In this document: in pieces, positions 1,702 to 5,746 of the stretch
Layout: each line of letters starts with the position of its first letter
Position numbering within the stretch: position 1 is the stretch's first letter
Translations under genes and position numbers: made by a program
Source of the DNA: an uncultured Prevotella sp.
GTDB taxonomy: Bacteria; Bacteroidota; Bacteroidia; Bacteroidales; Bacteroidaceae
NCBI GenBank assembly: GCA_900315835.1
Contig: ONAR01000004.1
Span: forward strand, 18,434-82,433
DNA: 64,000 nt
Direction: 5' to 3'
The notes under the pieces: model-generated
The model's database searches: none
Told to the model about the DNA's origin: nothing
The model's input: only the letters and a program-made list of their open reading frames with translations

Positions 1702-1947
1702 TCAGGGTACGGGGTCGTAGCCCGACCCGCCCCAGGGATTGCAGCGCAGGATGCGCCAGATGGCGAGGGCAAGGCCTTTGATGGGGCCGTGCTTGAGGAT
1801 GGCCTGCCGCGCATATTCCGAACACGTCGGGGTGAAGCGGCACGAGGGCGGCGTGTAGGGCGTAATGAACTTCTGATAAAACACGATAGGCAGCACCATC
1901 ACGCGGGCGATGGCGTGCGAGATGAGATGAAGCCAGTGTCTGATCAT
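1702..1947 (-). CDS. yidD: Membrane protein insertion efficiency factor YidD
   Basis: Small 81-residue protein that helps YidC/Sec-dependent membrane protein insertion. It shows the family hallmark [16 protein letters not shown] in the middle and ends with a [13 protein letters not shown] tail, both typical of YidD. An N-terminal amphipathic helix is expected to sit on the inner membrane. The start ATG overlaps the rnpA stop by four bases, so the two are translationally coupled. In most bacteria rnpA-yidD is part of the rpmH-rnpA-yidD-yidC cluster; here it sits behind hemD instead, an arrangement seen in Bacteroidetes. Confidence 0.95.
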
Positions 1948-2351
1948 AGTGTGCCTCCTTTGCTTATGCGTTCGCGCAGTCGGGTGAGCAGGGCGACGAC
2001 GGCGCGGCTGACGTCAGCACTGTCGTGCAGCTGGTTGTCGAGCCAGATGAAGGCCAGCACCATCGGTTGGAAGCCCTCGGGCAGCTTATTGCGCCGATAG
2101 GCCTCTCTCACCTGCCGCTTGACGCGGTTACGCTTGTTGGCCCTTCTGAAACAGCGCTTCGGTACGCTGATGAGCATCTGACTGACCGTGCCTTCCGGTG
2201 TAGGCATATAGATGAGGCGCAGGGGAAAGGCTGTCATCGACTTGCTGTGACCGCCGTTGAACAGGTCGTTGATGAGCTTCTTGCTGTGCAGCCGCTCGGC
2301 TTTCGGCAGTGTACAGCGTCGGCGTGCTATGGTAGCGCAGCCATCAGTCAT
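1944..2351 (-). CDS. rnpA: Ribonuclease P protein component
   Basis: Protein subunit of RNase P, which trims the 5' leaders of tRNA precursors together with the RnpB RNA. At 135 residues it is the normal size. The RNR signature is clear as [16 protein letters not shown] around residues 70-85, preceded by the substrate-binding strand region [10 protein letters not shown]. Its 5' end overlaps the hemD 3' end by eight bases and its 3' end overlaps yidD by four, so hemD, rnpA and yidD form a tightly coupled unit. The N-terminal residues before [11 protein letters not shown] could be shorter if a downstream start is used, but no better candidate is visible. Confidence 0.93.
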
Positions 2352-3108
2352 TGTCTTGCTTGCCGTTTTCCTTTTGCAGATAAGCCTTCAGTGCGCTTAT
2401 CATCGATGGATATTCCTTGGTGCCGGCCATGAGGTCAACACTGAGGTTGGCGTTCTCAATAGCCTTGGCCGTAGCAGGACCGAAGGCGCCAAGCTTCACC
2501 TGCCCCTTCTTCATGTCGGGGAAGGCCTGGGTGAGATATCTCACGCCGGTCGGGGTGGAGAAAATCAGCATATCGTAGTCGAAGTGCTGGATTTCTTCGT
2601 CGGTAAAGGGGTCGCTGAGGGTGCGGTACATCACGCACTCGGTGTGGTGCAGGCCTTTGGCGTCGAGCTGATGCTTGATATCGTCGTTGTGAACGCTGCT
2701 CATCGGCACGAGGTACTTCTCGGTCTTATGCTTCACCATCACGGGGATGAGGTCATCAATCTTGCCGGTCGTACCGAAGAAAACCTTGCGCTTGCGGTAC
2801 TGCACGTATTTTTGGATATAAAGCGAGATGGTCTCGGTAACGCAGAAATACTTCATATCCTCGGGGATGACGAGGCGGAGCTCCTTGGCCAGCTGGAAGA
2901 AGAAGTCGATGGCGTGGCGTGATGTGAATACGATGGCGGTATGAGAGAGGATGCTCACTTTCTCTGCACGGAATTCCTTGGCGGTGAGCCCTTCAACCTT
3001 GATGAACGGGCGGAATACAAGCTCCACCCCATACTCCTTGGCCAGTTCGTAATAAGGCGAATTGTCGTTGGAGGGTTTCGGCTGGGAAATCAGTATCTTC
3101 CTAATCAT
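2344..3108 (-). CDS. hemD: Uroporphyrinogen-III synthase
   Basis: Predicted to close the linear tetrapyrrole hydroxymethylbilane into uroporphyrinogen III, the branch point to haem, sirohaem and corrins. The 254-residue length and two-lobed pattern fit HemD. N-terminal ILISQPKPSNDNSPYYELAK resembles the 'KILITRP' opening of the family, and the mid-protein stretch IVFTSRHAIDFFF plus the C-terminal IFSTPTGVRYL and LGAFGPATAKAIE are the usual HemD anchor segments. The family is weakly conserved, so recognition rests on these plus context: in Bacteroidetes hemD commonly neighbours a DUF4271 gene and rnpA, exactly as here. The gap to DUF4271 is nine bases. Confidence 0.88.
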   Translation of the reverse strand: MIRKILISQPKPSNDNSPYYELAKEYGVELVFRPFIKVEGLTAKEFRAEKVSILSHTAIVFTSRHAIDFFFQLAKELRLVIPEDMKYFCVTETISLYIQKYVQYRKRKVFFGTTGKIDDLIPVMVKHKTEKYLVPMSSVHNDDIKHQLDAKGLHHTECVMYRTLSDPFTDEEIQHFDYDMLIFSTPTGVRYLTQAFPDMKKGQVKLGAFGPATAKAIENANLSVDLMAGTKEYPSMISALKAYLQKENGKQDND

Positions 3109-3117
3109 CTTTTTGTC

Positions 3118-4143
3118 CTAAAAAATTTGCTTAATATAGTTGTCCGTCATGGCCAGGACACCCATCAGGATACCTAACGGCATGATTTCGAGTGCACAAA
3201 AGTACAAAAAACTTTGCACAATGGAAACGGTTCGCTTAAAAAAGATGATGTAGGCCTTGTAAAAGGATAATAATTTGGCTAAAATGACAACTATAAAGGC
3301 GTAAATGGCTGTCTCTGTGATGGGCAGACCGAAATAGGAGAGCAGAAGTACGGCGGGGAAGAAGAGGATGCCTTCGGTGCAGATGAGGAAGAGGTAAGAC
3401 TTCATCCATTGTTCATTTTTTTTCTTATCAAAGAACACCCAGTTGACGACTTGATAGAGCAGGGCCTTGAGCAGGAGATAGGCCGCGATCTCACCCGTGA
3501 AGAGGCCGATGATCTGATAATGGGCAATGGCAAACGACTCGCCGCCGCGCGATTGCGAGAAGAAAAAGACGATGATGGCGGCCAAGAGGCAGGTCTGCGC
3601 CACGAGGAAGAACTGGAAGCGCATTTCGCCGCTGGTCTCGGTGATGACGGTGGTGCCTTCGCGCTGCACGCGGAAGAAGCTCTTGAGCTGGCGCTGAAGG
3701 AAGTTGCCCGAGGCCGAGATGGCGACGGCGGCGAAGATGAAGCAGGCCAGCAGAATTGACGTGATGAGGCTGTCGCCGGCAATGGTATAGGGTACGGGGT
3801 CGCCGGCCACGCCATGACGGTAGGAGACACGCTCGGGGCGGTAGATGGAGTCGGGCTGCACGAGCGAATGGCTATAGTACATGGGGTGGCTGACGAAGTC
3901 GCCGGCCTTCGGGTCGGCCTTCGTCGTCGGCGTGCGCAGCGGGTTGGGTCGCGCGGCCCAGTCGATGTCCTGGTACTTATAGTTGGCGCGCAGGGCCGAG
4001 TCCTGCTGCCAGGGTGTAGCCGTCGCGGGCAGCGTGCGAAGTATCTGCTCCGGCGTATGGAAAACGCCATGGCGGACGTGAGCCGCCGGGGTGGCGGTCA
4101 CGTCGGTCGTGGCATTGGTGAGTGTGTCTGCTTGTTGCATCAT
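3118..4143 (-). CDS. DUF4271 multi-pass membrane protein
   Basis: 341-residue protein with a long polar N-terminal region (about residues 1-120, proline/threonine rich) and then six or seven hydrophobic segments, including LITSILLACFIFAAVAI, LLAAIIVFFF, IAAYLLLKALLY and AIYAFIVVILAKLL. This is the organisation of the Bacteroidetes-specific DUF4271 family, of unknown function, which is found directly upstream of hemD in many genomes. Expected in the inner membrane. It lies 13 bases after metK and 9 bases before hemD, inside one transcription unit. No catalytic motif is visible. Confidence 0.85.
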   Translation of the reverse strand: MMQQADTLTNATTDVTATPAAHVRHGVFHTPEQILRTLPATATPWQQDSALRANYKYQDIDWAARPNPLRTPTTKADPKAGDFVSHPMYYSHSLVQPDSIYRPERVSYRHGVAGDPVPYTIAGDSLITSILLACFIFAAVAISASGNFLQRQLKSFFRVQREGTTVITETSGEMRFQFFLVAQTCLLAAIIVFFFSQSRGGESFAIAHYQIIGLFTGEIAAYLLLKALLYQVVNWVFFDKKKNEQWMKSYLFLICTEGILFFPAVLLLSYFGLPITETAIYAFIVVILAKLLSFYKAYIIFFKRTVSIVQSFLYFCALEIMPLGILMGVLAMTDNYIKQIF

Positions 4144-4156
4144 GTGCGTAATGAAA

Positions 4157-5446
<1,290 letters not shown>

Positions 5447-5510
5447 TGTTACTTTGTTTTTAAAGCGTGGAACAACGCAAGTAACCGTAAAATCTGAGGG
5501 GGAGGATTTT

Positions 5511-5562
5511 GCGATTTTAGCATTTTTTAATGTGGTTGCAAGCAGCCAAATTCTTCCACAAG
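5511..5562 (-). promoter_or_regulatory. Candidate SAM-II-type riboswitch in the metK leader
   Basis: Read on the minus strand, the leader shows a five-base stem (TGTGG at 5560-5556 with CCACA at 5535-5531) enclosing a 20-nt loop. The loop contains TTTGGC (5550-5545) and TTGCAA (5541-5536). An A-rich tail follows and ends in GCTAAAA (5521-5515). TTTGGC can pair with GCTAAA across the stem, forming an H-type pseudoknot. The known SAM-II aptamer has the same order: stem strand, a loop with GAUUU and UUGCAA, second stem strand, an A-rich stretch and GCUAAAA. The element starts about 20 nt after the predicted transcription start and lies in front of metK. Family assignment is by eye only. Confidence 0.6.
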
Positions 5563-5589
5563 TGAATAAATGTATTTAGAATGCGGGTG

Positions 5590-5597
5590 CAAAGTTA
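5590..5597 (-). promoter_or_regulatory. Promoter -7 element of the metK operon
   Basis: Minus-strand TAACTTTG (followed by C) fits the Bacteroidetes sigma-ABfr -7 consensus TAnnTTTG. Transcription would start near 5583, giving a ~137-nt leader before metK. Confidence 0.6.
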
Positions 5598-5707
5598 CGC
5601 CTTTTCTATGAAAGTACCAAGTAAAAGAAGGAAAATCGTTGTTTGGAGTAAAGGGTACGGTGAGCGGCAGCGACATAGCAACAGCGTACATTGCGCCGAC
5701 AGAGACA

Positions 5708-5746
5708 AAAGAAAGGGGGCCGGCGAACGACCGACCCCCTTCTTAA
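5708..5746 (-). terminator. Rho-independent terminator of the M16 peptidase gene
   Basis: Seventeen bases past the stop, the minus strand reads AAGAAGGGGGTCGGTC, a short loop, then GCCGGCCCCCTTTCTT. This is a GC-rich stem of about 15 pairs followed by a T-rich tail. Confidence 0.75.

Follow-up and report, generated by a model that had tools for sequence, protein, structure and literature searches.

A SAM-II-type metK leader in an uncultured Prevotella, and co-evolved complementarity between aptamer and downstream leader across Bacteroidota

SAM-II riboswitches of Bacteroidota are already published (2005, 2010), and the 'long loop' form, Rfam family RF01726, is listed for Bacteroidetes and marine samples by Weinberg et al. 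2010 (PMC2864571). A 2024 review (PMC10907184) states direct occlusion for SAM-II and SAM-V, the ribosome site lying within the pseudoknot and being hidden by SAM. Another paper (PMC6847099) describes Bacteroidota mRNAs as being without Shine-Dalgarno sites and, in Flavobacterium johnsoniae, initiation as responding to mRNA structure around the start. How translational riboswitches act in a phylum without Shine-Dalgarno sites is a question to which the literature search gave no answer, and the locus described here provides a clear case for it.

The DNA analysed is a stretch of 64,000 nucleotides from an uncultured Prevotella sp. (hereafter, the window). RF01726 was matched on its minus strand (cmscan, Infernal; E-value of 3.8e-9) over the entire model. 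This is the sole Rfam match at gathering threshold in the whole 64 kb, and the single match to the family in the 2.96 Mb draft genome. The loop of the P1 hairpin (TGTGG/CCACA) contains TTTGGC and TTGCAA, and the hairpin is followed by an A-rich stretch and then by GCTAAA; in the window, all six pairs of the pseudoknot helix P2b are formed, with G-U counted. Each of the 48 loci found with RF01726 over the cut-off (L001-L031 and L112-L128, L001 being the window again) has the element ahead of a metK start; 46 of these were placed by a regular expression, and the two that it missed (L002 and L027) were read directly. For the other 53 leaders located by regular expression, the window apart, the loci were fetched by metK, and the metK position is by construction. 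A chance match is ruled out by the E-value and the recurrence before metK. Judged by its sequence, the element is almost certainly a SAM-II riboswitch; it is an added member of a type known in the phylum, not a new class. The preliminary description of a SAM-II-like metK leader is thereby borne out in score, element order and metK context. Of the Rfam models that it had named, neither fits: RF00521 (SAM_alpha) was rejected at 20.4 bits, below its gathering threshold of 36, and RF01826 (SAM-V) at zero matches up to an E-value of 5 in 5380-5660. The covariance match that does exist has RF01726 as its best model. The promoter box proposed there is present, with a gap of 29 nt, not about 20 nt, to the stem.

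Table 1 Features of the metK leader and neighbouring genes in the window.
Feature	Position	Strand	Basis
Terminator-like hairpin 3' of upstream M16 peptidase gene	5712..5742	-	13 pairs, 8 G-C, T-rich tail
Promoter -7 box TAACTTTG (TAnnTTTG type)	5590..5597	-	sequence reading
SAM-II (RF01726) aptamer	5507..5565	-	cmscan 60.5 bits against gathering 44, model 1-60
P1 5' strand TGTGG, also proposed anti-aptamer target	5556..5560	-	sequence reading; 3 of 5 P1 pairs with two-sided changes
Pseudoknot P2b 5' strand TTTGGC	5545..5550	-	four of six P2b pairs invariant (32 sequences)
TTGCAACC	5541-5534	-	sequence reading
P1 3' strand CCACA	5531..5535	-	sequence reading and alignment
Pseudoknot P2b 3' strand GCTAAA	5516..5521	-	sequence reading and alignment
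Genus-specific hairpin P3 (AATCGCAAAATC / GATTTTACGGTT)	5483..5516	-	folds at -5.2 kcal/mol
Proposed anti-aptamer strand CGGTTACTTGCGTTGTTCCAC	5467..5487	-	complementarity to aptamer, swap tests
Proposed OFF hairpin GTTACTT / AAGTAAC, ends one base before ATG	5448..5485	-	-8.3 kcal/mol
metK ATG	5446-5444	-	sequence reading
metK, S-adenosylmethionine synthetase	4157..5446	-	PF00438, PF02772, PF02773
DUF4271 protein	3118..4143	-	PF14093
hemD	2344..3108	-	PF02602
rnpA	1944..2351	-	PF00825
yidD	1702..1947	-	PF01809

The element has a Bacteroidota promoter box on its upstream side and metK on its downstream side. PMC9723704 reports TAnnTTTG as the -7 consensus in one flavobacterium, and the box was seen by eye in all 23 rows of the genus alignment. 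It is also kept in 22 of 27 non-carrier leaders of the genus, within 150 nt before metK and at a distance of roughly 20-100 nt from its start; in some other non-carriers, we infer, metK is apparently transcribed from the peptidase gene. Downstream, the Pfam assignments give the order metK-DUF4271-hemD-rnpA-yidD-tyrS on one strand, with metK first and a tyrS-type synthetase last. The coordinates of hemD and rnpA overlap, as do those of rnpA and yidD, and 13 bases separate metK from the DUF4271 gene. The order from metK to tyrS recurs in every one of the 14 named loci of Prevotella type (L032-L044 and L065) that are long enough to show it, which, in gene order, bears out the earlier description of metK, hemD, rnpA and yidD as one operon; one of them (L039) has about 2 kb between metK and the DUF4271 gene and otherwise the order of the window. 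Each of the 14 has the DUF4271 gene placed between metK and hemD. SAM-II precedes metK in one of these loci and is absent from 12 (from L033-L043 by motif and Rfam, from L065 by motif alone), and L044 begins at metK. At the 11 loci L033-L043, tRNAs are the only other Rfam elements at gathering threshold. Because the order persists in 12 loci without the riboswitch, SAM control of hemD, rnpA and yidD is not a conserved need; that SAM may tune tetrapyrrole and tRNA-maturation genes, as had been proposed, we infer only from gene order.

Within the aptamer, the two helices differ in the kind of conservation that they show. In a 32-sequence alignment, the covariation score of P1 was reached by none of 500 shuffles; 93.7% of P1 cells are paired, the outermost pair being broken in 10 of 31 sequences, and further pair types are no more numerous than in shuffles (337/500). 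P2b (UUUGRC/GCUAAA) has no covariation among the 32 sequences, 18 of which are unpaired or non-standard at column pair 20-48. The preliminary description had looked to the stem and pseudoknot pairs in relatives, together with a covariance-model match, for confirmation: the match was found, P1 is conserved with covariation, and P2b is conserved without it.

Beyond the aptamer, carriers in the genus mostly keep the hairpin P3, the outermost base of which is common to P2b. In the genus alignment, the 23 rows of which include near-copies, one P3 pair, read by eye, appears as A-U in 12, as G-C in 5 and as G-U in 3, while another 3 cannot be aligned there; UCCAC, complementary to the P1 5' strand, is kept in 22. 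In the window leader, GTTGTTCCAC and GTGGAAGAAT form a duplex of -11.5 kcal/mol with one mismatch. The minimum-energy fold of the leader has GUGGAA paired with UUCCAC; this fold accounts for 0.3% of the ensemble, whose centroid has no anti-aptamer helix. The stability of the whole window leader shows no excess over shuffles (z of 0.01) and is uninformative as evidence, and the window's own pairing between aptamer and downstream part is not better than in shuffles (p of 0.24).

The complementarity was evaluated across the phylum with 96 leaders, which remained of the 100 located by regular expression once duplicates and L001, which repeats the window, had been taken out. Compared with dinucleotide-shuffled downstream parts, native pairing with the aptamer reaches p ≤ 0.05 in 38 of the 96 (mean z of -1.58), and native partners pair more strongly than swapped ones by 2.56 kcal/mol. 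With the 79 leaders below 80% identity, the excess is 2.91 kcal/mol (z of -10.0), compared with 0.38 (z of -1.5) for reversed downstream controls, and at an identity limit of 62% it persists in 75 leaders (z of -9.1). The excess survives when the 12 nt that directly follow GCTAAA are removed (z of -9.3), and when the start region (z of -9.7) or the P1 3' strand (z of -9.6) is removed in addition. The pairing extends over half or more of the P1 5' strand in 77 of 79 leaders, and over the same share of the variable loop in 68 and of TTTG and TTGCAA in 65 each. A later search of the phylum gave 29 new loci, 27 of them found by the regular expression, and 21 leaders were kept whose downstream parts are less than 80% identical to one another and to the first set. 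These repeat the result (excess of 1.57, z of -3.7, p of 0.00025; reversed control z of 0.0), with 20 truly independent, as L177 and L179 show one pairing stretch. In the genus alone, the swap test with 20 leaders is not significant (p of 0.35), because the genus aptamers are nearly invariant. Computation thus shows co-evolved complementarity, across the phylum, between the 5' half of the aptamer and the downstream leader. From these sequence comparisons, we consider it quite probable that the complementary segment serves as an anti-aptamer switching helix.

The distance from GCTAAA to the metK ATG is 69 nt in the window and 50-292 nt (median 78) in 123 leaders, the 96 and the 27 of the later search. 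In this spacer, a SAM-bound leader could halt transcription, either through an intrinsic terminator or, after a translation block, through Rho; terminator-like sites between aptamer and ATG occur in 6 of the 123 leaders against 1.7 expected, but the remaining 117 are without one and a terminator scan of 5515-5446 (-) was negative, and we regard attenuation as unlikely. Textbook direct occlusion, as stated in the review cited above, does not fit because the aptamer ends 50-292 nt before the AUG: there is no ribosome site in or near the pseudoknot, mRNAs of the phylum are described as having no Shine-Dalgarno sites, and the co-evolved complementarity of the spacer would be left unexplained. We give this reading very little weight.

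Pairing of the spacer with the start region exceeds that of swapped partners by 1.43 kcal/mol in 73 leaders (z of -5.9), of which reversed controls retain 0.5-0.6 (z of -2.5 and -2.1); in the later set, the z is -2.0 and that of the control 0.2. When the aptamer is held folded in the calculation, openness of the start region is predicted to fall in 60 of 90 leaders and in 18 of 20 from the genus. The drop in openness averages 0.061, compared with 0.024 with shuffled spacers, and exceeds the shuffled value in 67 of 108 leaders (p of 0.0045) and in 15 of 19 from the genus (p of 0.026); for the window, it is 0.093 natively and 0.016 ± 0.024 with shuffled spacers. The strand complementary to the aptamer and the strand that pairs with the start overlap no more than by chance (28 of 73 over expectation, p of 0.16), and one strand common to both helices throughout the phylum is not supported. 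These predicted effects are small and support start-region occlusion as the output weakly; we put it forward tentatively, at slightly less than an even chance.

The arrangement preferred here is an exchange of strands between aptamer and downstream leader. Without SAM, the downstream strand would invade the aptamer (in the window, UUCCAC on GUGGAA), and this anti-aptamer state would leave the metK start region relatively open. With SAM, P1 and P2b would be locked and P3 would form, and the released leader would help to cover the start region (in the window, GUUACUU on AAGUAAC, one base ahead of the AUG). Covering the start region would reduce initiation with no need for a Shine-Dalgarno site. 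When SAM is plentiful, the riboswitch would accordingly be expected to lower expression of metK and probably also of the genes behind it. This SAM-OFF direction is very likely; the combination of SAM-II identity, OFF direction and anti-aptamer switching is probable. That SAM-II works by strand exchange throughout Bacteroidota, with anti-aptamer invasion at low SAM and a SAM-driven release that closes the start region, would be a broader claim, which we consider possible, at somewhat less than an even chance. If true, strand exchange would constitute a translational riboswitch platform independent of Shine-Dalgarno sites, unlike the direct occlusion described for SAM-II.

The riboswitch is distributed patchily. 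RF01726 was found in 41 of 149 relatives, comprising 5 of the 90 in the genus of the window (G000-G089) and 36 of the 59 outside it. It lies over the cut-off in 22 of 398 genus genomes, that of the window included, and in 41 of 296 genomes of the phylum; many of the genomes searched are incomplete drafts, and some absences may be gaps. Among genus genomes at least 90% complete, 17 of 175 match at E ≤ 0.001, and MetK itself was detected in 94 of 100 genus genomes. The closest named metK, from Prevotella sp. BIN10 5086, is 81% identical and has a leader with SAM-II. On a metK tree built from 72 rows, of which 21 are carriers and 40 non-carriers from the genus and 11 come from outside it (L115, with its start not found, and L127, identical to L032 and perhaps the same genome, were left out), the carrier label needs 6 changes and carriers fall in two regions; the outside rows were chosen among carriers, and the tree alone does not show ancestry. 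Since 36 of the 59 families outside the genus carry SAM-II, ancestral presence with several losses is the simplest reading, and SAM-II was probably ancestral and often lost in the genus. That the window copy is itself a decaying relic that no longer regulates, in line with its rarity in the genus and with the two base differences and 3-base insertion that set it apart from other carriers just past GCTAAA, is the least likely of the alternatives and highly improbable, as the aptamer matches the whole RF01726 model, carriers from both tree regions conserve the promoter, the aptamer and the greater part of the downstream strand, and one P3 pair varies as A-U, G-U and G-C.

Several matches and metK genes depart from the common form. 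In genus g66 and some neighbours, many RF01726 matches (L182-L190) span about 100-110 rather than about 60 bases, with an insert between the P1 3' strand and GCTAAA. The metK leader L132 (G115) has an intact P1 hairpin, an unusual stretch at the usual start of the A-rich linker and an 88-base Rfam match barely above threshold (44.6 bits). Two matches were rejected: one below threshold in G154 (L129; 32.8 bits), where the next frame is not metK and metK lies on another contig, and a second match in G091 (L130; 32.7 bits), which resembles an ordinary strong hairpin and is not followed by metK. Four genus genomes (G009:C17, G059:C7, G070:C11 and G036:C169) have an additional, distant metK-like match with 42-45% identity to the window MetK, and G026 (G026:C2) has two close ones (81% and 78%). 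In L023 and L024 (G077 and G038), the MetK match is split into residues 1-244 and 229/231-429 within one 477-residue open frame, which suggests that the middle part of the enzyme contains an in-frame insertion.

The co-evolved anti-aptamer strand with an output free of Shine-Dalgarno sites may be new: the literature search, which covered PMC2864571 apart from its Additional File 1 (SAM-II details), found no earlier account of either, and nowhere found SAM-II, riboswitch and anti-aptamer treated jointly. The strand offers a specific, testable platform, and the patchy occurrence of SAM-II within a genus that keeps the metK gene order supplies natural comparisons with and without the riboswitch. 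Alpha-proteobacterial SAM-II (RF00521), as presented in PMC1273637, has in common with the window a two-part fold of P1 hairpin and P2 pseudoknot; its model aligns across the window element, yet with a score well under the threshold. Many of those elements are accompanied by putative terminators, according to the same source, whereas the window scan found none. With RF01726, the window shares the whole aptamer model, the order of elements and the metK context of the relatives found; no difference was found in the aptamer, and P3 and the anti-aptamer strand come after the part that the Rfam model describes. The alternative-helix (sequester and anti-sequester) platforms that PMC10907184 depicts for translational control use mutually exclusive aptamer and platform helices, an arrangement that is only proposed for the window. 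Those platforms, as described there, target a ribosome-binding site with the AUG, whereas the target in the window would be a start region without a Shine-Dalgarno site.
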